DNA from: Nitrospinota bacterium
Lineage (GTDB): Bacteria > Nitrospinota > Nitrospinia > JACRGO01
DNA length: 29,856 nt
Assembly: GCA_016212295.1 (NCBI GenBank)
Contig: JACRGO010000138.1
Span: 1 to 29,856, forward strand
Direction of reading: 5' to 3'
A program made the translations under genes and the position numbers. The stretch's first letter is position 1. Every line of letters starts with the position of its first letter. The notes under the pieces were generated by a model that saw nothing but the letters and a program-made list of their open reading frames with translations, was not told the origin of the DNA and made no database searches. Below, one piece after another: positions 7,259 to 21,323 of the stretch.

Positions 7259-7462
7259 ATTCAGGAAATTGTCTGATGCCTGATTTTTCAGTCAGGAAAT
7301 TCGGAATCCGAAGCACGAATTCAAGTCTTCTATGTTTATCTTCATCGGGCGAATATTGGCTTTATCAAAAATACGAAACAAGGGCAAAAACACTGATTTC
7401 CAAATGACAAAAACCTAAATTTTCCTCTGCGGACTTTGCGTCTTTGCGGTCAATTGAAAAAA
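7259..7462. other. Spacer between cheY and cas6
   Basis: No gene is seen. A short repetitive phrase, CTCTGCGGACTTTGCG followed by TCTTTGCGGT, lies at 7431-7450, just before the cas6 start. Phrases like this are intergenic filler in many environmental genomes, so the open frame crossing it (from 7436) is unlikely to be coding. Confidence 0.4.
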
Positions 7463-8491
7463 ATGATTCTTCCTTTTAAATCAGGCGTTTTTCAGTTCCG
7501 GCTTGCGGCCCGTGACCCATTGTCCCTCCCCCCTTACAAAGGCTCCACTCTCCGTGGCGGCTTCGGGACCGCCTTTAAGAAGGTGGTTTGCGCCGTCAGA
7601 ACCAAAGACTGCCTACAGTGCTTACTCAAGGAAAAATGCGTCTACTCCTATGTCTTTGAAACCCCGCCTCCAAAAGATTCGGAAATCCTCCGCAAATACG
7701 AGAAGGCCCCGCACCCTTTCATTATCGAGCCTCCCCTGGAGGACAAAACGGAATACAAGCCAGGCGATTCCCTGGACTTTCACCTTGTCCTCATAGGCAA
7801 GGCCCTGGACTACCTGCCTTACTTCATTTATACCTTTGAGGAATTGGGGACCATTGGGATCGGAAAAGGGAGGGGGAAGTTTGAATTGCTGGAGGTCCGG
7901 CACGGGGACCGGACCATTTATCAGTCAACCGACAAAAAACTTCAATCCATACCCGACTCAGATTTTTCCTCTTCAAGTGTTTTTAACGGCCAAAACGGTT
8001 CCGGCGATTTCCACGGCCTTGACAACTCCAACGGAGGCCCCTCCCTGTCCTTAAACTTCCTTACCCCCACGCGGATGATTGTTGACGGCAAACTCGTGAC
8101 AGAGCCGGATTTTCATCACCTGGCAAGAACTCTCCTCCGCCGGATTTCCACTCTTTCCTATTTCCATTGCGATAAAAGGCTGGACCTGGATTTCAAGGGC
8201 CTGATCGAAAAAGCGAAAAAGGTGAAAACCCTGGACAGGAAAACAACATGGCACGACTGGGAAAGATATTCCGCCCGGCAGGATACAAAGATGAAAATGG
8301 GCGGGTTCGTGGGGAAAATAACCTTCGAGGGGGAGTTGGGAGAGTTTATGAAGTTTATAGAGCTTGGCGAGAGGCTGCATGTGGGCAAAGGGACGAGTTT
8401 CGGGTTGGGAAAGTATATTATTACGTTCAGAAAATTTTCCTTTAACCGCTCAACGCCGATTTTATTTCAAGCGGAAAAGGCAAATTTCTGA
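7463..8491 (+). CDS. cas6: CRISPR pre-crRNA endoribonuclease Cas6
   Basis: Cas6 cuts CRISPR transcripts inside each repeat to release guides with an 8-nt 5' handle. The product, about 342 aa from the ATG at 7463, belongs to the Cas6 group with a Cys-rich insert: KGSTLRGGFGTAFKK, then CLQCLLKEKC and YVFETPPP. The second ferredoxin-like half follows (LNFLTPTRMIVDG, LLRRISTLSYFHC). The C-terminal Gly-rich loop is GERLHVGKGTSFGLGKY. The frame also opens at a TTG at 7436, but that part is repetitive intergenic sequence; neither start has a good ribosome binding site. After GLGKY, where such proteins usually end, about 24 extra residues are encoded by a near-palindrome at 8414-8504, so the tail looks like an insertion or a read-through hairpin. 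Confidence 0.9.
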   Translation: MILPFKSGVFQFRLAARDPLSLPPYKGSTLRGGFGTAFKKVVCAVRTKDCLQCLLKEKCVYSYVFETPPPKDSEILRKYEKAPHPFIIEPPLEDKTEYKPGDSLDFHLVLIGKALDYLPYFIYTFEELGTIGIGKGRGKFELLEVRHGDRTIYQSTDKKLQSIPDSDFSSSSVFNGQNGSGDFHGLDNSNGGPSLSLNFLTPTRMIVDGKLVTEPDFHHLARTLLRRISTLSYFHCDKRLDLDFKGLIEKAKKVKTLDRKTTWHDWERYSARQDTKMKMGGFVGKITFEGELGEFMKFIELGERLHVGKGTSFGLGKYIITFRKFSFNRSTPILFQAEKANF

Positions 8492-9181: not shown

Positions 9182-11872
9182 ATGAAAATGACCTCAGACC
9201 AAAAAAAGGAATACCAAACCGTCATCCTGGCGGAGTTACTGCATGATGTGGGGAAATTTCTGCGGCGGGGAAATGGAAAATACAAAGGATCTCACCCGGC
9301 TGCCTCCGCGAAATTTATTGAAAATTTTCACGACAAGTTAAAGAACGATTCCCTTTATGACATTGAGCTTGTAAAAACCCTGGCCCTTCACCACCATTCC
9401 ATAAAAAAGAAAGTCTTTGGGTGCCCGTTACTTAAGGATAAGCCACAAACGGAAAAAGATCATTTTTGGCAATTGCTGAAAATCGTAAAGGTCGCGGATA
9501 TTTATTCCTGCATGGAGCGGGACCATTTTCAAAACAGAAACAGCATGGTTGATAACAAAAGAATGCCTCTGGATTCTGTTTTTTCAAGCATTCATCTGGA
9601 ACCTGAAGAACCCTTGGAGAAAAAACCAGGAAGATACCATGCTTGCCGCATTGACCCCTTAACTTCCTTCCCCGATCCCTCAGTTGATTTTTCCTCCTTG
9701 GGCGAAAAGGAGGTTCCTGGCCTTATCGCGAATTTCGAACGCCATATCCCGGACTTTTCCCGGCTGGAACAATTTGACGATGTGTTAACCGCCTGGCTCA
9801 ACATCCTGGAGCCCTTCACCTGGGCCATTCCCAGCGACACGAGGTATGGACATTCCGACATCTCCCTTTTTGATCATCTCCGCTCTTCGGCGGCCATGGC
9901 GGCCTGTCTGCACAAACGCCACCTGGCGAATATGGAGACCGGAGAAAACTTTAACCGTAAATATGAATTCATGTTCATCGCCGGGGATTTTTCCGGCATT
10001 CAGGATTACATATTCCACGTCACCAACCTGGGATCAGGCGGCGCGGCAAAACGTCTCCGCGCCCGGTCTTTTTTTGTTTCCCTTTTCTCCGAGGCCGTCA
10101 TCCATAAGATCATTCACGCATTAGACATTCCCCTTTTATGCAATGTTTTTTCCGCCGGAGGGAAATTCTTGATCCTCGCCCCTGATATTGACGAGACTGG
10201 AAAATTACTTCAGAGCGTCAAGGAATCAATTGAGAACGAAATCCACTCCACCTATTTCAACCAATTTTCATTTCTCATGTCCTGGATGCGCATGGAAGAG
10301 TTTAAAGCGAATTTTAAAGTTTATAAATTCTTCAAGGTCGCGGACGAGATGTTCCACAGACTGGAAACCGAGAAGACTCAAAAATACCGCAATGTCTTAT
10401 TGGACCAGGAAAAAGGCGCATGGCAGGAAGAGTCTTTCAAGGCAGGAAAGCTTTATGCGGGTTATAAGGAGACAGGAGATTGTAAAATATGCGGAAGAGG
10501 TCCGGCGACGCCTGAAATTTATAATGACCGGAAAGGGTTGGACGAGGATGAAGAAAGAGACACCTGTTTTTTGTGTTACCGGGACAAGTTTCTTTTGGGC
10601 CAGACTCTGCCGCGTATCAAATTTGTAGCCTTCGGCAGGGGCAAGTTAGCGGATGAAGAGAAAAAGAAAAAAATTGTATTGTTCAACGGAACTGAGGATA
10701 GCAGTCTCGATTATTATGCGGACCTGCTGGAGCGGCCTGAAAGCTCGCGGGATTGTTACCTCATCCACGCATTGGAGGAGACCAAATCGGATTGGAATGT
10801 CTTTGGCGGTAAGCCTTTTTTGAGGAAGTATTACGCCAATCATGTCCCAACGGTAACGGAAGACAACAACAAAACCACAATGTGTTTTGAGGATATCGCC
10901 AAATTGTCCAGATGGGAAAAGAAAGAAAACGGGAAATCAATAATATTCGGCGCGGAACTCCTTGGGGTCCTGAAGGTGGACATGGACAATCTTGGCTTCA
11001 TCTTCAGCAAAGGTTTTGAAAACCCGTCAAAGCTCGAAAAAAAGAACGAATCAGGGAAACCGCTCCGGGAAATTGACCGGAAGACCGCTTCCCGGTTTCT
11101 GACCATGTCAAGAATGATCGAGCTCTTCTTTTCCGGTTGGATGAAAGAGATCATGGACAAAAATCGGGAAGAAGAAATCATTTCGGAACTGAAAAGGAGC
11201 GGGAAGATAGATGTTGACCGCTTTGCAAAATACATAGGAGAAAGCCCGGTTGATTTTAAGAATATTTACACGGTTTATTCCAGCGGAGACGATATGGTCC
11301 TGGTTGGTCCTTGGGAGACCATGATTGTTTTTTCCATTTTCCTGAATATGCGATTCAGGAAGTTTACCAGCAACAACAAGCACATTACCCTGTCCGCCGG
11401 GCTTTCCTTTGTGAAGCCGAAACACCCCATCGCCTCGGCCATCCGCCAGGCCGAGGAACTTTTGGAAAAGTCCAAGAGAGAGGGAAAGGACAGGATAACC
11501 TTTTTCGGGACCACGGTGGAGTGGGAGAAACTCCCGGACTTGGTGAATTTCTTTTTGTTTCTGAATGAGAAGTTGATGGACAAGGATTCAAAAATCAAGA
11601 CCGGCTTTGCCCACAGGCTTTTTGAATACCACCGAATGGCATTAAGTTTTTTTGAAGAAGGAAAAATAGAGGGCTTAAAGTACCTATCCGCCCTGAGTTA
11701 CGATATGGGAAGGAATTTGATCAAGCGCGATGCACAAGGGAAAATAATTAGAGGAATGGAGGAATATATCGCTCTTCAGCCTTTAATAAATGATTCACCC
11801 AATAAAATTTCTCTGATTTCTAAAGTGAAAATACCTTTATTTTGGGCGCTTTATAGAAATAGGAGAGCATAA
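9182..11872 (+). CDS. cas10: Type III-A effector subunit Cas10/Csm1
   Basis: Cas10 is the large subunit of the Csm complex. When target RNA binds, it cuts single-stranded DNA (HD domain) and makes cyclic oligoadenylates (palm domain). The 896-aa product has an N-terminal HD domain (H21-D22 in LLHDVGKF, with LALHHHS and KVADIYS). The first palm-like domain shows DFSGIQDYIF and SAGGKF at 324-329. A zinc-finger-like pair follows (C434/C437 and C462/C465), then the second palm (VDMDNLG near 600). The catalytic motif is S701-G702-D703-D704, so the first Gly of the usual GGDD is Ser while both Asp remain. Length is normal. The ATG at 9182 has no clear ribosome binding site; 9188 is an alternative. 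The stop overlaps the next ATG by one base (TAATG). The last 150 bases are more AT-rich than the rest of the gene. Confidence 0.96.
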   Translation: MKMTSDQKKEYQTVILAELLHDVGKFLRRGNGKYKGSHPAASAKFIENFHDKLKNDSLYDIELVKTLALHHHSIKKKVFGCPLLKDKPQTEKDHFWQLLKIVKVADIYSCMERDHFQNRNSMVDNKRMPLDSVFSSIHLEPEEPLEKKPGRYHACRIDPLTSFPDPSVDFSSLGEKEVPGLIANFERHIPDFSRLEQFDDVLTAWLNILEPFTWAIPSDTRYGHSDISLFDHLRSSAAMAACLHKRHLANMETGENFNRKYEFMFIAGDFSGIQDYIFHVTNLGSGGAAKRLRARSFFVSLFSEAVIHKIIHALDIPLLCNVFSAGGKFLILAPDIDETGKLLQSVKESIENEIHSTYFNQFSFLMSWMRMEEFKANFKVYKFFKVADEMFHRLETEKTQKYRNVLLDQEKGAWQEESFKAGKLYAGYKETGDCKICGRGPATPEIYNDRKGLDEDEERDTCFLCYRDKFLLGQTLPRIKFVAFGRGKLADEEKKKKIVLFNGTEDSSLDYYADLLERPESSRDCYLIHALEETKSDWNVFGGKPFLRKYYANHVPTVTEDNNKTTMCFEDIAKLSRWEKKENGKSIIFGAELLGVLKVDMDNLGFIFSKGFENPSKLEKKNESGKPLREIDRKTASRFLTMSRMIELFFSGWMKEIMDKNREEEIISELKRSGKIDVDRFAKYIGESPVDFKNIYTVYSSGDDMVLVGPWETMIVFSIFLNMRFRKFTSNNKHITLSAGLSFVKPKHPIASAIRQAEELLEKSKREGKDRITFFGTTVEWEKLPDLVNFFLFLNEKLMDKDSKIKTGFAHRLFEYHRMALSFFEEGKIEGLKYLSALSYDMGRNLIKRDAQGKIIRGMEEYIALQPLINDSPNKISLISKVKIPLFWALYRNRRA

Positions 11873-12633
11873 TGAATGTTTTGATAATTTCTGATAATTT
11901 TGAAAAAGAATATTTGCCTCAAGAAAAACAAGAAGATTTTGATTTTATAAAATGGAAGGAAGAAAAAATCAAACCTTCTTTGAATGAATACGACATTTTT
12001 GTCATTGATCTTTGCTTTTCAGAAAACAGAGATAGTTTGAATTTCATTAAAGACGTCTATTTAAGCTTAGAACAGAAACTAAACCGAGAATTAATTCAAG
12101 AGGGTTTAGTACTCATAATAATTTCTGGATATGAAAATAAAAAAATTTTCGACTATGAGAATATTGAAGAAGAAGGGGATAATAAAAACCAAGAGGGGTC
12201 TTCAAAATATGGCCCAGAAATGATTGACAAGGTAAAGCTTACGTATGATTTTTTGAAAAGAATCGACGTTGAGATTTATAACAGAATTGAATTTATTGTC
12301 GGCAAAAGGTTTGCCAAACCATCTGAAACAGTATTTTCAGATTACTTTAATCATGTCAGTAAATTTTTTATGACTTTAAATTTGCACCTTAGCCAGGATG
12401 ATAATTTTGAAAAAATCTCCAAAACTGCTGGCTTTGGAAGTGCTTGGGTTTCTTTTGGGAAAAAAACCGGCAAAGGTTTTTTATTAATTTTCCCCGGATA
12501 TGATTTAGACAAAAAAAAGGATTCCTTCATCGCCATATCAAAAATTTTAGATATTTATTATGAGAAACAGCAAAAAATTATATTTGAAAAGGAAAACGAT
12601 TCAGGAAGTAAAACACAACCGGCACCAGTCTAA
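11872..12633 (+). CDS. Unknown alpha/beta protein embedded in the csm operon
   Basis: I do not recognise this 253-aa protein. Its start overlaps the cas10 stop (TAATG), after AGGAG at 11861-11865, so it is translated with cas10, and csm2 follows 61 bp later. The N-terminal part alternates strands and helices: MNVLIISDNF, YDIFVIDLCF and GLVLIIISGYE look like three parallel core strands of a receiver, Rossmann or glutamine-amidotransferase-like fold. A charged linker follows (about 97-117), then a helical middle. Near the C-terminus lies a Gly-rich strand (TGKGFLLIFPGYD) and a tail rich in Lys and Glu. No HEPN (R-x4-H), PD-(D/E)xK nuclease or transmembrane motif is visible. It is clearly more AT-rich and Lys/Asn-rich than the cas genes around it, which suggests separate acquisition. 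Its position makes it a candidate accessory or effector of type III immunity; this is inference. Confidence 0.85.
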   Translation: MNVLIISDNFEKEYLPQEKQEDFDFIKWKEEKIKPSLNEYDIFVIDLCFSENRDSLNFIKDVYLSLEQKLNRELIQEGLVLIIISGYENKKIFDYENIEEEGDNKNQEGSSKYGPEMIDKVKLTYDFLKRIDVEIYNRIEFIVGKRFAKPSETVFSDYFNHVSKFFMTLNLHLSQDDNFEKISKTAGFGSAWVSFGKKTGKGFLLIFPGYDLDKKKDSFIAISKILDIYYEKQQKIIFEKENDSGSKTQPAPV

Positions 12634-12694
12634 ATAGTGAATAGCCGTTTACAATTTTTCTTAAAATACTTGCAAATGAAAGGAGGAACAGTAA

Positions 12695-13126
12695 ATGCCA
12701 ACTTTTTTTTATCAAGACGATTCAAAAAAAGAAATTAAGGAGGAATTCCTAACCAACAAAGCCAAATCCTGGGCGGAAAACTTTATTTCTCCAAAACAAC
12801 CAAAGGAGAGATGGGAAAGAAACCCAAAATTGACCTCCGCCCAATTGCGGCGGTTCCATATCGAGGCAAAAACCCTGGAGGAACGGGTCCGCAATATGGA
12901 AAACCCGGAAAAAGAGTTCCCTGGACTCAGGCCCCTCGTAAAAATGCTGAAATCCAAGGTGGCCTATGCCTGCCCCAATACTGGAAGAGACAGAAAAGTC
13001 CCGGATGAATTTCGGAAATATATAGAGGAGATGGTGGACCACATTGAGGACCACCGGGACTTCATGGCCTTTGCCTTATGCTTTGAGGCTGTGGTTGGAT
13101 TCTTTTACGGACAAGGAGGGAGATAA
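12695..13126 (+). CDS. csm2: Type III-A small subunit Csm2
   Basis: Csm2 is the small helical subunit that lines the inner filament of the Csm effector beside Csm3. The 143-aa product is all-helical in character. It has the family pattern of an N-terminal variable part, then LTSAQLRRFHIEAKTLE, a central PLVKMLKSKVAYA segment and the C-terminal HRDFMAFALCFEAVVGFFYG helix. The gene has a perfect AGGAGG ribosome binding site 8-9 bases before the ATG and sits 1 bp before csm3. Csm2 is weakly conserved in sequence, so the call leans partly on order: cas10-(unknown)-csm2-csm3-csm4-csm5. Confidence 0.92.
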   Translation: MPTFFYQDDSKKEIKEEFLTNKAKSWAENFISPKQPKERWERNPKLTSAQLRRFHIEAKTLEERVRNMENPEKEFPGLRPLVKMLKSKVAYACPNTGRDRKVPDEFRKYIEEMVDHIEDHRDFMAFALCFEAVVGFFYGQGGR

Positions 13127-13127
13127 G

Positions 13128-13865
13128 ATGAAACTCTTAGGATATAAAAAAATCAATGGAATTATTGAAGTGGTTACCGGACTTCACATCGGCGGGAGCA
13201 CGACAATCATTGAAATCGGCGGCAAGGACAACCCGGTTATAAAGAACCCCATCACCAAGGAACCATACATACCAGGGTCTTCCATCAAGGGAAAGATGCG
13301 CTCTCTTTTGGAATGGAAACTTGGAAAAATCGACGCAGACCCCAATAGCAGGGAGCGGGGAGAAGTTCATAAATGCACGGACGATAAATGCCCCATCTGT
13401 GTCATCTTCGGCACGTCCGCCGATGAGGCCGCCCTCGGTCCCACTCGCCTTGTGGTCCGTGACTCAGTTTTGAATGATGATTATAAGAAAAAACAAAAAT
13501 TAAAAAACCCCAACTGGACCGCCTTGGATCTCCTGGAAGATAAGTACGAAAACACCCTCAACCGCATAACCGCCAGGGCCAACCCCAGGAATTTCGAGCG
13601 CGTGGTCGCAGGCGCGGAATTTTCCTTTGCCATGACCTACAAGGTCTTTGAAAACGGGAATGGCGATAATTTGGATGTAGGGCTTTTCCAACACGTTTTT
13701 GATGGCCTAAAGCTCGTGGAAAGCGATGCCTTGGGCGGAGCAGGCAGCCGGGGCTGCGGACAGGTCAAATTTAAGATAAGGGGCGCTGATGGAGAGCTTA
13801 AAGGTTTGGAAGCCATCGATATAAAAGAAGATTTCCCAACAGAAGGAGTTCATGACGCAAAATGA
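13128..13865 (+). CDS. csm3: Type III-A backbone RNase Csm3
   Basis: Csm3 is the repeated backbone subunit of the Csm complex and cuts bound target RNA at 6-nt intervals. The product, 245 aa from the ATG at 13128, shows the RAMP signature: VVTGLHIGGS, then KDNPVIKNP with D34 as the expected catalytic Asp, PYIPGSSIKGKMRSLLEW, and a Cys cluster (KCTDDKCPICVIFG) that may bind zinc. The Gly-rich C-terminal loop is DALGGAGSRGCGQVKF. The frame is open from 13044, but GGAGGG lies 7 bases before the 13128 ATG, which is one base after the csm2 stop. The retained Asp indicates active target-RNA cleavage. The gene overlaps csm4 by 4 bases (ATGA). Confidence 0.96.
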   Translation: MKLLGYKKINGIIEVVTGLHIGGSTTIIEIGGKDNPVIKNPITKEPYIPGSSIKGKMRSLLEWKLGKIDADPNSRERGEVHKCTDDKCPICVIFGTSADEAALGPTRLVVRDSVLNDDYKKKQKLKNPNWTALDLLEDKYENTLNRITARANPRNFERVVAGAEFSFAMTYKVFENGNGDNLDVGLFQHVFDGLKLVESDALGGAGSRGCGQVKFKIRGADGELKGLEAIDIKEDFPTEGVHDAK

Positions 13866-14866
13866 CGGATTGCCAAGGTTTTACTATCGAAATTGACTTG
13901 AGGTCCTCCTTGGGCACGCCCTTCCAATCGGACACCTTTTTCGGCCACCTCTGCTGGTCTCTCCGTTTTCTTTGGGGAGAGGAAAAACTTCAGGAATTTC
14001 TTAGCCGTTATGAAAACAGGGAGTCCCCTCCCTTGCTGCTGAGCGACGGCTTTCCCGTGGGTTATCTCCCCAAGCCGGTCCTGCCTCCCGTTAGCCCGAC
14101 GGATCTGGATCGAATCGTAGGAAAGGAAAACAGAATTCACAACTCGTTCATGATCAAGGCCATAAAAAAAGCGGTCCTTATGCGAAGAGACATTTTTTTT
14201 GAACTTCAACAAGACGCCATTACCCCTGAAAAACTTTTCAAGGCCATGAAAAGCGCATATAAGAATGAAGAGGGAACGGAAGGACCAGGAATCAAGGAGT
14301 CCATTCAGCATAACACCATCGACAGGATCACAGGGTCGGTGAGGGATGGAGGACTCTTTATTCATGAGGATACCTTTTTTGAACCTGAATCTTCCCGTTT
14401 TGAAGTTTACCTGAAGACCAACTGTTTTTCCATGCGAGAGCTTGAGAAAATATTTGAGTACATGGGAGAGGGAGGTTTTGGGCGGGACAAATCCACAGGC
14501 AAGGGGCATTTTACTTTCCAAATCCGGGAGGGAATAAATTTGCCGGAAACGGAAAATCCCAACGCCTTCATGACCCTTTCTTCTTACATTCCCCATGCGG
14601 AGGCGCCCACCAGAGGCCATTACCGGACCCTTCATAAATATGGAAAACTGGGAGGGACTTATGCCCAGGGTTCGCCGGAAGCACATAAGAATCCCTTTAA
14701 GAAGCCGCTCCTCATGTTCGCGGCTGGCTCCACCTTTTATGATCCCGACTTTAAAAGCGGCAAAATATATGGCTCGCTCCTGAGAGAGGTGCATATAAAT
14801 AAAGATATTCGTCATTACGCCTACGCCTTTCCCGTGGGTATAAGGCTGGAGGATAAGGGTTGTTAA
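13862..14866 (+). CDS. csm4: Type III-A subunit Csm4
   Basis: Csm4 binds the crRNA 5' handle and holds Cas10 at the foot of the Csm complex. The 334-aa product opens with a RAMP ferredoxin-like strand, DLRSSLGTPFQSDTFFGHLC, continues with the FPVGYLPKPVLPP segment typical of the family, and has a Gly-rich loop YMGEGGFGRDKSTGKGHF in the second half. The C-terminus carries HYAYAFPVGIRL. Length is usual for Csm4. It starts inside the csm3 stop (ATGA) and ends one base before the csm5 ATG, so the three genes are tightly coupled. It has base composition like csm3 and csm5, unlike the AT-rich gene after cas10. Confidence 0.94.
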   Translation: MTDCQGFTIEIDLRSSLGTPFQSDTFFGHLCWSLRFLWGEEKLQEFLSRYENRESPPLLLSDGFPVGYLPKPVLPPVSPTDLDRIVGKENRIHNSFMIKAIKKAVLMRRDIFFELQQDAITPEKLFKAMKSAYKNEEGTEGPGIKESIQHNTIDRITGSVRDGGLFIHEDTFFEPESSRFEVYLKTNCFSMRELEKIFEYMGEGGFGRDKSTGKGHFTFQIREGINLPETENPNAFMTLSSYIPHAEAPTRGHYRTLHKYGKLGGTYAQGSPEAHKNPFKKPLLMFAAGSTFYDPDFKSGKIYGSLLREVHINKDIRHYAYAFPVGIRLEDKGC

Positions 14867-14867
14867 A

Positions 14868-15908
14868 ATGAAACATTACACCTTAAAATTTGAAATCCTC
14901 TCCCCTCTCCATATCGGCGCTGGAGAGGAAATGGACCCCATGAGCTACATCATAAAGGGAAACCGCTTGTACCGCGTCTCCTTTGAAAAATTTGTTTCCA
15001 GGATGGATGAATCCCAAAGGTCGGAGTTCGAGTCAGTGATCGCAAAAGGCAATCTTGTGGACTTGCGAAGGCACGTCATAAAAAAACTGGACCTTGAAAG
15101 CGAAGCCCTTTACTCCGTGGAAGCGTCGATGCAAATCAGCAAACTCTATGACTCCAAAATTGGAGACATGGAGAATCAGTTGCTGATCCACCAGTTCCTG
15201 AGGACCGAGGACGCAGCCTTCCCCCTCATTCCCGGCAGTTCCCTGAAAGGGGCCATCCGCACCGCGTTGGTCAGCGAAATGGCCGGAAGGAGCGGACTTC
15301 CCAAGCCCAGGGAACCCAGGGAGGAATACGAATTCGAGTTCAAGGTCCTGGGCTGCAAGGACGCCAAGGAAGACCCCTTCCGTGGAGTGAAGATAAGGGA
15401 CAAAACCCTCTCCCATGATGCCGCCATAGTGCGGGAAATACGGAACATGGCCAAGGGCAAGGGAAGAGGATTGCAACCCAACAGCATTCAGATCATCGCC
15501 GAGACCACGCATTCCAAAATCACCGGTAAGGAGGTCCACTTTGAAACAGACCTGCTTATTGACGACGGCCTCTTCTCCACCCGATTTCTTGGCAAGACCA
15601 TCACCATTGACCAGATAGTGAAATCTTGCACCGATTTTTACATGGACAAGATGGAAATGGAGCACGACAAATTTTATAAAGGAAGCGCGGCGGAAAGCAC
15701 GTCCACCTTTCTCTTGAATACCGAATTCGATGATGATTCCTTTCCTCTTCGCCTGGGTCGCTTCTCCGGGGTGGAATCCGTCACCCTGGATGAATACCGC
15801 AACCCAAAACCGCCCGGAAAAACCGGAAAATGGGGGACCTCCAAAAACTTGGCGGAAGAAAAATATCCCATGGGATGGGTGAAGGTCACGGTTGAATGTA
15901 AGGATTAG
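14868..15908 (+). CDS. csm5: Type III-A subunit Csm5
   Basis: Csm5 caps the 3' end of the crRNA in the Csm complex and helps recruit trimming nucleases. The 346-aa product has the family opening YTLKFEILSPLHIGAGEEMD, a RAMP core with FPLIPGSSLKGAIRTAL, and a C-terminal part with PLRLGRFSGVESVTLDEYR. Length is normal. The start lies one base after the csm4 stop. It is the last gene of the interference operon; a perfect 18-bp inverted repeat (15923-15940 with 15971-15988) follows within 15 bp of its stop and may end transcription. Confidence 0.95.
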   Translation: MKHYTLKFEILSPLHIGAGEEMDPMSYIIKGNRLYRVSFEKFVSRMDESQRSEFESVIAKGNLVDLRRHVIKKLDLESEALYSVEASMQISKLYDSKIGDMENQLLIHQFLRTEDAAFPLIPGSSLKGAIRTALVSEMAGRSGLPKPREPREEYEFEFKVLGCKDAKEDPFRGVKIRDKTLSHDAAIVREIRNMAKGKGRGLQPNSIQIIAETTHSKITGKEVHFETDLLIDDGLFSTRFLGKTITIDQIVKSCTDFYMDKMEMEHDKFYKGSAAESTSTFLLNTEFDDDSFPLRLGRFSGVESVTLDEYRNPKPPGKTGKWGTSKNLAEEKYPMGWVKVTVECKD

Positions 15909-16017: not shown

Positions 16018-16104
16018 GAATAAAGGATTGAGACGGCAAACTCTCTGGCAAACACTCCGGCAAACCCTCCGGTTGGAATGGCTGACTTGATGAATAAAGG
16101 ATTG
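16018..16104 (+). CRISPR. Decayed CRISPR array (one spacer) after csm5
   Basis: The 3' part of a repeat (16018-16034, ending GGATTGAGAC), a 37-base spacer (16035-16071), then a repeat at 16072-16104 whose first 33 bases equal the repeat of the main array before it diverges (GATTGGAAAG instead of GATTGCGAC). Orientation matches the main array. The first repeat is cut at its 5' side by heptad filler, and no leader remains. The spacer itself is three near copies of a 12-mer (GGCAAACTCTCT, GGCAAACACTCC, GGCAAACCCTCC). Confidence 0.85.
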
Positions 16105-17687: not shown

Positions 17688-18692
17688 ATGCCTAATCTTT
17701 ATTTAACCGAACAAGGCGCCGTGCTCCGCAAGACCGGCGACCGCTTGATCGTGGAAAAGGACGGGGAGGTCCTGCTGGACGTCCAATGCCACAAGATCGA
17801 GGCGGTGCTCATCTTCGGCAATGTCCAGTTCACCACCCAGGCGGTGAAGGAGCTTTTCGAGCACGGGATCGAGATGGCCCTCCTGACGAAAAACGGAAGG
17901 CTCGTCGGCCAGATCACCTCCCCCTTCACCAAGAACATCGAGCTTCGGATCGCCCAGTTCGAGAGGCACAGGGACGAGGATTTCAAGTTGGAATTCTCCC
18001 TCTCCCTTGTGGCGGGAAAGGTCCGGAATGCCCTCCAGGTTTTGAAGACCTTTGCCTGCAACCATGCGGAAACAGACCTGACGGAGGAAATCCAGGGATT
18101 GGAATCCTCGCTGAGGACCCTGGAAAACGGAAAGATCGCTGCGGAAGGTTTGAACGGCACGGAAGGAAACGCGGCCAGGGCCTACTTCGCTGGATTCGGG
18201 AAGATGGTCCGGAACGGGTTCGGTTTCGAGGGGCGGAAGAAACGTCCACCCACGGACCCGGTGAACGCCCTGCTCTCCCTGGGGTACACCATGATCTTCA
18301 ACGAGATTTCCTCCCTCCTGGACGGTCTGGGCTTTGATCCCTATCTGGGCTATTACCACAAACCGGAATACGGCCGGGCCTCGCTTGCCTCGGATCTGAT
18401 GGAGGAGTTCCGCGCTCCCATCGTGGACCGCCTGACCCTGAGATTGGTCAATAACCGGATGCTGGCGGAGAAAGATTTTTACAATAACCCGAAGGGAGAG
18501 GGAATCTACCTGACCCGTGAGGCGTTGAAGAGGTATTTCGCGGAGTACGAGGAATTCATCGGACGGGAGTTCACCCACCCGGACACCAAGGAAAAGACCT
18601 CTTTCCGAAAGTGTTTCCGAATCCAGGCGGAAAGGCTCGCCTCCGCCATCAAGGGGGAGAAGAAATACCTTCCATTCCGATTGGAGAAATGA
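17688..18692 (+). CDS. cas1: CRISPR adaptation integrase Cas1
   Basis: Cas1, with Cas2, inserts new spacers at the leader end of the array. The 334-aa product has the N-terminal beta domain (MPNLYLTEQGAVLRKTGDRL and VLIFGNVQFTTQAVKELFEH) and a helical catalytic domain. The metal ligands are E159 in GTEGNAARAYF, H224 in GYYHKPEYGR and the Glu pair at 239-240 in SDLMEEFRAPIVDRL. Length is normal and all expected residues are present. The ATG follows directly on an inverted heptad tract, with no good ribosome binding site. It is separated from cas2 by 182 bp holding a MITE-like insertion; elsewhere the two genes are usually adjacent. Confidence 0.97.
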   Translation: MPNLYLTEQGAVLRKTGDRLIVEKDGEVLLDVQCHKIEAVLIFGNVQFTTQAVKELFEHGIEMALLTKNGRLVGQITSPFTKNIELRIAQFERHRDEDFKLEFSLSLVAGKVRNALQVLKTFACNHAETDLTEEIQGLESSLRTLENGKIAAEGLNGTEGNAARAYFAGFGKMVRNGFGFEGRKKRPPTDPVNALLSLGYTMIFNEISSLLDGLGFDPYLGYYHKPEYGRASLASDLMEEFRAPIVDRLTLRLVNNRMLAEKDFYNNPKGEGIYLTREALKRYFAEYEEFIGREFTHPDTKEKTSFRKCFRIQAERLASAIKGEKKYLPFRLEK

Positions 18693-18741: not shown

Positions 18742-18848
18742 TTATTAACCGTCTCAAAATAGAACGCACATAAAAATTCCCCTCCTTGGAGGGGTGGCGC
18801 GGAGCGCCGGGGTGGGTTATATCAATACTATTTTGAGACGGTTAATAA
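18742..18848. mobile_element. MITE-like element, copy 1, between cas1 and cas2
   Basis: A 107-bp non-coding element with perfect 21-bp terminal inverted repeats (18742-18762 and 18828-18848, outer end TTATTAACCGTCTC). The GC-rich core contains CCCTCCTTGGAGGGG and GGCGCGGAGCGCC palindromes. A second copy lies inverted at 21215-21323. It splits a heptad filler tract between cas1 and cas2. No target-site duplication is obvious and no transposase is in the window. Confidence 0.85.
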
Positions 18849-18874
18849 ATGTTGAACTTTGAAAAAGATGAGAT

Positions 18875-19150
18875 ATGCTTTATCTAATCTCCTACGATAT
18901 CCCGGACACGCCCAGGCGGACCAAGGTCGCGAAGATATTAAAGGACTTCGGCGACCGGGTCCAGTACAGCGTGTTCGAGTGTCTCCTGGATGGGGAACTC
19001 CTGGAAAAAATGCGCTCCAGATTGGAAAAGGTTTTGGTGGAGGCGGAGGACAGTCTGAGGATTTACGCCCTGTGCGGCAAGTGCGAAAAAGGAGTCACGG
19101 TGATTGGCCAGGGAGAGGTCTCAAAAGAAGAGAAATATTATATTTTATAA
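18875..19150 (+). CDS. cas2: CRISPR adaptation protein Cas2
   Basis: Cas2 forms the dimeric core of the Cas1-Cas2 spacer integrase. The 91-aa product is a single ferredoxin-like domain with the family opening MLYLISYDIPDTPRRTKVAK (D8), the DRVQYSVFECLLD strand, and the C-terminal LRIYALCGKCEKGVTVIG segment. Length is normal. The ribosome binding site is weak (AAAGATGAGAT just upstream). The gene lies between the MITE-like copy 1 and the leader of the main array, on the same strand as cas1. Confidence 0.96.
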   Translation: MLYLISYDIPDTPRRTKVAKILKDFGDRVQYSVFECLLDGELLEKMRSRLEKVLVEAEDSLRIYALCGKCEKGVTVIGQGEVSKEEKYYIL

Positions 19151-19349: not shown

Positions 19350-19758
19350 GTTGGAATGGCTGACTTGATGAATAAAGGATTGCGACCGGACCCTCGCTCA
19401 CCGTGCCGACGTCACTTCCCATCGGTTGGAATGGCTGACTTGATGAATAAAGGATTGCGACGTTTCAACTCTTTCACGGCCTCCTCGAAAGTCTTTTTTG
19501 TTGGAATGGCTGACTTGATGAATAAAGGATTGCGACCTTGTTGTTTCCTCTCTTTCGATAAGCCGGGAACATTGTTGGAATGGCTGACTTGATGAATAAA
19601 GGATTGCGACCCAAGCCTGGGAAGAGTTTGACTTGACTGTTGAAGAAGTTGGAATGGCTGACTTGATGAATAAAGGATTGCGACAAGAAAAGTGCGGATG
19701 TCAGATAAATTCCGATGATGAGTTGGAATGGCTGACTTGATGAATAAAGGATTGCGAC
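19350..19758 (+). CRISPR. Main CRISPR array: 6 repeats, 5 spacers
   Basis: Six identical 37-bp repeats (starting GTTGGAATGGCTGACTTG and ending GGATTGCGAC) lie at 19350-19386, 19425-19461, 19500-19536, 19574-19610, 19648-19684 and 19722-19758. The spacers are 38, 38, 37, 37 and 37 bp. The last 8 bases, ATTGCGAC, match the usual Cas6-made handle, so transcription is on the plus strand away from cas2. The distal repeat is not degenerate and is followed at once by a different repeat family. That suggests the original end of the array was lost. Confidence 0.98.
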
Positions 19759-19905
19759 AACCCGCTTCGCGGAGGGAAAGATAAAGTGAAGAGTGAAAGG
19801 AAAGGACCTGGAAGTCCGGCTGCGCAATAAGCTCAACTTTCACTTTGGCTTTGTCTTTCTCTCCCTGGCTGGCTTTATCTTTATCTCCGGCCTTGCCGGG
19901 CCGAC
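19759..19905. repeat. Hairpin unit A (no ORF)
   Basis: First of four tandem units. It begins AACCCGCTTCGCGGAGGG and ends GGCCTTGCCGGGCCGAC. The inner arms (GGGAAAGATAAAG and AGTGAAAGG against CTTTCACTTTGGCTTTG and TTTATCTTTATCTCC) pair around a short loop with no gene. It directly abuts CRISPR repeat 6. Confidence 0.8.
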
Positions 19906-20028
19906 AACCCGCTTCGCGGAGGGAAAGATAAAGTGAAGAGTGAAAGGAAAAGACTTGAAAGTCCGGCTGCGCAATAAGCTCAACTTTCACTTTGGCTTTA
20001 TCTTTATCTCCGGCCTTGCCGGGCCGAC
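19906..20028. repeat. Hairpin unit B (no ORF)
   Basis: Second tandem unit, 123 bp. It is nearly identical to unit A but lacks the doubled right arm. It has the same start, the same loop (AAGTCCGGCTGCGCAATAAG region) and the same end (GGCCTTGCCGGGCCGAC). Confidence 0.8.
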
Positions 20029-20523
20029 GGCCCGCTTCGCGGAGGGAAAGATAAAGGGAGGAGTGAAAGGATATGAAGGATTTCAGAGACCTGATAGTCT
20101 GGCAAAAGGCGGTATTGTTGTTTGAACAATGCGTTGCTGATACGAAAAATTTTCCCAAGACCGAAGCCGCGAGAGTGATAATAAACCAGATATTAAGAAG
20201 CGTTGGTTCCACAAGCGCGAATATTGCCGAGGGATTTGGAAGGAGAAAGGGGAAAGAATATGAGCACTATCTTTATATCGCTCGGGGATCAATTAACGAG
20301 AGTCTGGATTGGTATGAAAAATTAAAGAGGTTAAAGTATATTGATGAGGCATCATTTTCGGAAAGGCAGGGAACGTGCAATGAGATCAGGGCCATGCTTA
20401 CAGCTATGATTGACAAGGTTCATGTATGATCTTTCACTTTGGCTTTATCTTTATCTCCCTGGCTGGCTTTATCTTTATCTCCCTGGCGGGCTTTATCTTT
20501 ATCTCCGGCCTTGCCGGGCTGAC
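20029..20523 (+). mobile_element. Hairpin unit C carrying the four-helix-bundle gene
   Basis: Same borders as units A and B, but a 357-bp gene takes the place of the loop. The right arm (CTTTATCTTTATCTCC) is repeated three times. A gene held in the loop of a long stem is the layout of 23S rRNA intervening sequences, seen here outside rRNA. Confidence 0.7.
20073..20429 (+). CDS. Four-helix-bundle protein (23S rRNA IVS-encoded type)
   Basis: The 118-aa product belongs to the S23/four-helix-bundle family first seen in intervening sequences of 23S rRNA genes and related to the Avd accessory proteins of diversity-generating retroelements. Recognisable parts are MKDFRDLIVWQKAV, then QILRSVGSTSANIAEGFGR, then YEHYLYIARGSINESLDWYE. 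Length is typical. The molecular role is not established; the family may bind nucleic acid. GAAAGG lies 5 bases before the ATG. The gene lies in the loop of unit C, just after the CRISPR array. No reverse transcriptase or template repeat is seen nearby, so a retroelement role is not supported here. Confidence 0.92.
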   Translation: MKDFRDLIVWQKAVLLFEQCVADTKNFPKTEAARVIINQILRSVGSTSANIAEGFGRRKGKEYEHYLYIARGSINESLDWYEKLKRLKYIDEASFSERQGTCNEIRAMLTAMIDKVHV

Positions 20524-20690
20524 GGCCCGCTTCGCGGAGGGAAAGATAAAGGGAGGAGTGAAAGGATATGAAGGATTTCAGAGACCTGATAGTCTGGCAA
20601 AAGGCGGTGGGATTGTTTGAGCAATGCGTTGCTGATACGAAAAATTTTCCCAAGACCGAAGCCGCGAGAGTGATAATAAACCAGATATAA
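20524..20690. repeat. Hairpin unit D (3' truncated)
   Basis: Fourth unit. It repeats the left border, the left arm and the first 120 or so bases of the four-helix-bundle gene, then breaks off into unrelated sequence. The right arm is missing. Confidence 0.8.
20568..20690 (+). pseudogene. Truncated copy of the four-helix-bundle gene
   Basis: The first 40 codons match the intact gene at 20073 with only a few changes (Leu-Leu becomes Gly-Leu near residue 15; a silent change follows). After INQI the similarity ends and a TAA follows. It keeps helix 1 and part of helix 2 and cannot form the four-helix fold. The near identity to the intact copy points to a recent tandem duplication. Confidence 0.88.
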
Positions 20691-21172: not shown

Positions 21173-21214
21173 TACTTTGGCCTTTCAAATTGATCCACGG
21201 TTCTAATTTTACAG

Positions 21215-21323
21215 TTATTAACAGTCTAAAAATAGTATTGATATAACCCACCCCGGCGCTCCGCGCCGCCCTTCCAAGGAGGGGAATTTTTATGTGCGTG
21301 TTCTATTTTGAGACGGTTAATAA
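21215..21323. mobile_element. MITE-like element, copy 2, inverted
   Basis: A 109-bp element, the reverse complement of copy 1 at 18742. Terminal repeats are at 21215-21235 (two mismatches to copy 1) and 21303-21323 (identical). It keeps the GGCGCTCCGCGCC and CCTTCCAAGGAGGGG core. It lies between the hydrogenase large-subunit gene and its protease gene. Confidence 0.85.

Follow-up and report, generated by a model that had tools for sequence, protein, structure and literature searches.

Intervening sequences (IVSs) carrying an S23 open reading frame (ORF) are known in the 23S rRNA of Leptospira and Coxiella (PMC4990558); the S23 protein family, PF05635, resembles Avd, the accessory protein of diversity-generating retroelements (DGRs; PMC10053308); and genes for 23S rRNA intervening sequence proteins (IVPs) have been reported in association with CRISPR adaptation modules. 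S23/IVS elements, regarded so far as oddities of 23S rRNA, appear in the present analysis as a wide class of hairpin elements in transcript orientation, one branch of which resides in CRISPR repeats. The case under study is contig JACRGO010000138.1 of a Nitrospinota bacterium (a 3.74-Mb metagenome-assembled genome, MAG), analyzed over its whole 29,856 nucleotides (nt; hereinafter, the window), where four tandem units at 19759-20690 adjoin repeat 6 of a CRISPR array. Sequence comparison makes it probable (roughly 0.65) that these units represent an S23 hairpin element from a branch inhabiting CRISPR repeats, present here in one copy with the ORF, two without it and one that is truncated. A search of the open-access literature turned up no previous account of S23 elements located in CRISPR repeats (preprints and most subscription journals were outside the search). 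The array and the units are as follows:

19350..19758, + strand: CRISPR array, six perfect 37-nt repeats GTTGGAATGGCTGACTTGATGAATAAAGGATTGCGAC and five spacers; the element begins directly 3' of repeat 6
19759..19905, + strand: unit A, bare hairpin, 147 nt; start AACCCGCTTCGCGG, end GCCGGGCCGAC; fold z -4.5
19906..20028, + strand: unit B, bare hairpin, 123 nt; same borders as unit A; fold z -3.4
20029..20523, + strand: unit C, 495-nt hairpin element whose arms enclose the S23 gene; end GGGCTGAC
20073..20429, + strand: S23 (23S rRNA IVS-type) four-helix-bundle protein, 118 aa, intact, of the CRISPR-type clade
20524..20690, + strand: unit D, 167 nt, copy of the 5' portion of unit C that breaks off within the ORF; 97% identical to C over 200 nt
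19899..19905, + strand: GGCCGAC at the A/B junction, repeated at 20022-20028, with GGCTGAC at 20517-20523; relatives keep GGGCTGACCTGATGAAAAAGGGATTGCGAC here

The initial annotation, made from the letters alone, had described four tandem hairpin units abutting the array (two bare, one with a four-helix-bundle gene, one truncated) in the layout of a 23S rRNA IVS, with and without ORF, but outside rRNA and against repeat 6; all of this stands, with the borders refined as listed. Units A and B fold better than their shuffled versions, whereas the entire unit C does not (z 0.39); its left and right border hairpins are at 20031-20042 and 20505-20517. The protein encoded in unit C matches PF05635 (8e-29; 100.4 bits against a cut-off of 33.8) and TIGR02436 (4e-29; 101.1 bits against 24). 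The claim of shared borders holds within this branch but requires correction in detail: units A and B start with AACCCGC and end with CCGAC, whereas C and D start with GGCCCGC and C ends with CTGAC, and the arms differ between element families. As for further copies, a search of the 3.74-Mb genome for the exact left border (at most 3 mismatches) gave four occurrences, all of them in the window; relatives are found at many sites. The contact with the array is real as well, but it reflects a habitat common to a clade represented in several phyla rather than a peculiarity of this locus. None of the four units matched an Rfam family.

The evidence for this habitat comes from the S23 phylogeny. The window protein falls within a 17-member clade (SH-like approximate likelihood ratio test support, 96), 12 members of which lie within type-III-like CRISPR arrays or at their ends, in Nitrospirota, Planctomycetota and the genome analyzed here; by hand-curated counts, the excess of array locations over other S23 loci is highly significant (Fisher p about 1e-11). 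The nearest array-located relatives are L026, L027, L028, L029, L030, L032 and L034 (our locus numbers), followed by L287, L305, L306 and L307. At least three unrelated S23/arm families (A1-type, L307 and L308) are present in CRISPR arrays. Truncated and tandem copies are common. Array residence is not confined to the trailer: the element of L287 is followed by a true spacer and a complete repeat, and in L320, on a 2.37-Mb contig, two 96-nt bare hairpins that differ at one position occupy two places in one array, with three spacers between them. A relative of the L320 hairpins is found at the trailer of a second array on the same contig (L321), a distribution that could have arisen by transposition as well as by recombination between repeats. 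A different S23 subtype is represented in the CRISPR array of L329 (1503-2362), with its bare unit amplified about fourfold, and in L320 (after rc 7299) and L331 (after 622), a generic-type S23 element directly follows the CRISPR-type element at the array trailer.

The bare hairpins themselves appear to be conserved as structures. Nine such units from several genomes adopt one common structure, in which 7 of the 29 pairs are changed on both sides; compensatory changes were counted in 11 cells, against a mean of 4.4 in shuffled data (0/500). Sliding the partner columns destroys the pairing, a control that is somewhat favorable to the common structure, which was derived from the same nine sequences.

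The junctions between the elements and the repeats follow a recurrent pattern. Array-borne elements share the transcript orientation of the array, and nearly all of them start right after the 3' end of a repeat (about 7 nt earlier in L307); on the right, the element usually abuts a 5'-truncated copy of the repeat of the same array, as it does wherever its flanks are intact. This suffix is exactly 25 nt long in L028, L029, L287, L305 and L307, which represent at least three unrelated arm types, and shorter in L308 (23 nt), L032 (18), L320 (14) and L026/L027 (11-12); a 25-nt stretch of like form also closes the elements in L306 and L034, whose full repeats are off the contig. The upstream repeat is thus left whole, and the downstream one retains at least its last 8 nt, the crRNA (CRISPR RNA) handle. 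The window element likewise starts at the repeat 3' end in transcript orientation, but at the right end of its units only CCGAC/CTGAC is present where relatives have the partial copy of the local repeat. The window units end with GGGCCGAC or GGGCTGAC, which is the opening of the partial repeat in L306 and L029 (GGGCTGACC...), so the window can be read as having lost the other 22 nt. Comparison with the relatives thus suggests that GGCCGAC/GGCTGAC at the unit ends are remnants of a partial CRISPR repeat. The initial annotation took the likeness of the junctions as a hint of how the element joined the array; the junction is indeed meaningful, but CCGAC/CTGAC is better explained as an eroded second, partial repeat.

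These observations suggest a scenario for the origin and maintenance of the elements. The duplicated repeat end would result from insertion, or from recombination moving a unit of element plus partial repeat between repeats; in the window, a deletion from one GAC direct repeat to the other (GAC...GCGAC) could then have left only CCGAC/CTGAC of the partial repeats and brought the units into tandem. Cas6 cuts on both sides would release the element RNA from pre-crRNA, in the way RNase III frees IVSs from pre-23S rRNA, and the element would therefore be tolerated; the S23 protein might bind the element RNA and aid its persistence or spread, and the bare hairpins would be non-autonomous copies. 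Judging from the copies compared, the branch is probably mobile, and we infer that the window-type element may spread itself. The most specific version, which we propose tentatively and rate at somewhat short of even odds, is a mobile RNA-hairpin lineage specialized on CRISPR repeats, the CRISPR counterpart of rRNA IVSs: insertion would duplicate the 3' 25 nt of the repeat (the Cas6 processing region plus the handle), and host Cas6 would excise the element from pre-crRNA, so that the immune memory is kept. Such a branch would amount to a parasite or passenger of adaptive immunity; the presence of these elements in CRISPR arrays of several phyla suggests that bacterial immune memory has a resident genetic passenger of its own, and the question of the role of the S23 protein becomes testable with Cas6 and repeat substrates.

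The layout of the CRISPR-borne elements can be placed within a wider pattern. Among the 18 PF05635 matches in this genome, 17 exceed the cut-off, and 12 of 17 tested loci are flanked by inverted repeats (score of at least 14), compared to 0 of the 74 control placements; the window copy scored 13 in this coarse test. For S23 loci from many phyla, the respective counts are 48 of 79 and 0 of 790. The arms consist of degenerate short tandem repeats the sequence of which differs between element families; they track the S23 subtype (Mantel test, 0/300), with arm similarity rising with S23 identity above 50%. The arm families surrounding S23 genes are also found as bare hairpins elsewhere in 341 kb of the same genome, so bare units such as A and B are part of a common pattern. 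At loci with co-directed flanking genes, the S23 strand agrees with both neighbors in 71 of 79 cases (71:8, gene strand being judged from the longest open frames).

Other S23 subtypes occupy intercistronic gaps: between nuoC and nuoD in Mesorhizobium and its relatives (Rhizobiales; L076, L099, L101, L069 and L084), where a tandem-repeat arm of the Mesorhizobium element overlaps the nuoC stop codon, and between groES and groEL in Chryseobacterium (L216-L274). Across 57 Chryseobacterium genomes, the latter site contains one of two main S23 types or a short, mostly hairpin-bearing gap, no cleanly empty allele having been found among them, and these states are unlinked to the groES/groEL tree (36 changes over 56 tips, against a shuffled mean of 32.4), which shows that S23 and bare hairpins are rapidly exchanged or replaced at this site. 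In L312 and L316, an S23 element with arms of the AAGGCACAAAGGCAC type lies between cas1 and cas2 (Cas2 confirmed by profile, the Cas1 end read by eye). This arrangement is a likely source of the published association of IVP genes with CRISPR adaptation modules, which the CRISPR-repeat branch, too, could explain: both have S23 near CRISPR adaptation genes, but the figure legend of that report mentions no element, hairpin or repeat insertion, whereas here S23 elements are found inside repeats and between cas1 and cas2.

The resemblance to the known systems is accordingly partial. As in 23S rRNA IVSs, terminal inverted repeats form a long stem closed by a loop that holds the S23 ORF, ORF-less versions exist alongside ORF-bearing ones, and the element sits in transcribed RNA cut by an RNase; in contrast, the elements described here are hosted by a CRISPR repeat or an intercistronic gap, the likely cutter would be Cas6 rather than RNase III, units occur in tandem, and the target repeat is partly duplicated. 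Lying against a CRISPR array, not inside a 23S rRNA gene, the window element is IVS-like in layout but not an IVS by location; no 23S rRNA gene was found in this assembly. REP/BIME (repetitive extragenic palindromic sequences and bacterial interspersed mosaic elements) and foldback-type elements are dispersed hairpins with non-autonomous copies and tandem clusters, and foldback inverted repeats are built of short tandem repeats; the elements described here share these features but have no transposase, their arms differ between element families, and the linked protein is S23. Unlike DGRs, which share the protein superfamily through Avd (the solved PF05635 relatives, 2GSC and 2RLD, comprise five chains), there is no reverse transcriptase (RT) beside the window gene; the single RT match of the genome is on contig C142, with none on the window contig (C92), and template/variable repeats were not searched for. 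Dependence on an RT as a general rule is unsupported; in one genome (G004), 10 S23 matches were found but none to an RT.

The strongest alternative reading is domestication: hairpins and S23 protein, as an accessory of the CRISPR locus, would stabilize or end pre-crRNA at the trailer and would be inherited with the locus without being mobile. The mostly leader-distal position, the shared array orientation, the similarity of the neighboring Cas1 proteins and the purifying selection on S23 are all compatible with this possibility (among the two pairs with unsaturated dS, dN/dS, the ratio of nonsynonymous to synonymous rates, is 0.12 for L026/L027 and 0.08 for the generic-type pair L004/L005). 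Nevertheless, elements between true spacers (L287 and L320), the unrelated S23/arm families in arrays, the common truncated and tandem copies, and the elements of other S23 subtypes in groES-groEL, nuoC-nuoD and cas1-cas2 are at odds with it, and we deem it unlikely. Uptake of the elements as spacers by Cas1-Cas2 and their retention as the oldest array entries would account for their spacer positions and their start at the repeat 3' end; adaptation, however, duplicates the whole repeat, rather than the 11-25 nt seen on the right, spacers are 30-48 nt long versus about 83-480 nt for the elements, and the orientation of the elements is always the same, so that this origin seems quite improbable. 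Least credible of all is a chance neighborhood, an ordinary S23 element next to an array followed by tandem duplication: the 17 other PF05635 matches of the genome outside arrays would permit it, but it is already contradicted by the comparative data, the closest relatives in other phyla having the same location, border hairpins and junction.

Several observations weigh against residence of a mobile branch in CRISPR repeats. Five of the 17 clade members show no array, some of them at contig ends or in decayed context, and most of the genomes are MAGs. Many cases are at the leader-distal array end with similar Cas1 nearby, and thus also fit one old insertion carried along with the CRISPR locus. 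The leftover repeat varies between 11 and 25 nt and is nearly lacking in the window, which leaves a fixed insertion mechanism no more than possible. Copies occur at different places within one array (L320) and in two arrays of one genome (L320/L321), but no matched pair of one array with and without the element was found; a same-genus genome (G001) considered for an empty-site comparison was too diverged, with mainly repeats matched. To our knowledge, S23 has no catalytic activity.

The window array is downstream of a type III-A locus:

7436..8491, + strand: cas6 (PADLOC Cas6, 5e-112), crRNA-processing nuclease that would act on the repeats flanking the element
9182..15908, + strand: type III-A effector genes cas10/csm1, ORF 11872-12633, csm2, csm3, csm4 and csm5
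17688..18692, + strand: cas1; product 61-72% identical to Cas1 near several other element-bearing arrays
18875..19150, + strand: cas2 (PF09827, 2e-24)

Of the 77 genomes compared in its phylum, this is the only one with the CRISPR-type S23 protein (195 versus at most 92 bits), which fits horizontal arrival of the element, possibly together with the CRISPR locus because of the Cas1 similarity listed above. The region containing the array and the element is flanked by a 53-nt inverted repeat (94%; 18800-18852 and 21211-21263) with the motif CCCCGGCGCTCCG, possibly another dispersed repeat family. Finally, AAAGGATTGAGAC at 16022-16034, 3' of csm5, is similar to the 3' end of the CRISPR repeat, from which it differs by a single mismatch, and may be a stray degenerate repeat.
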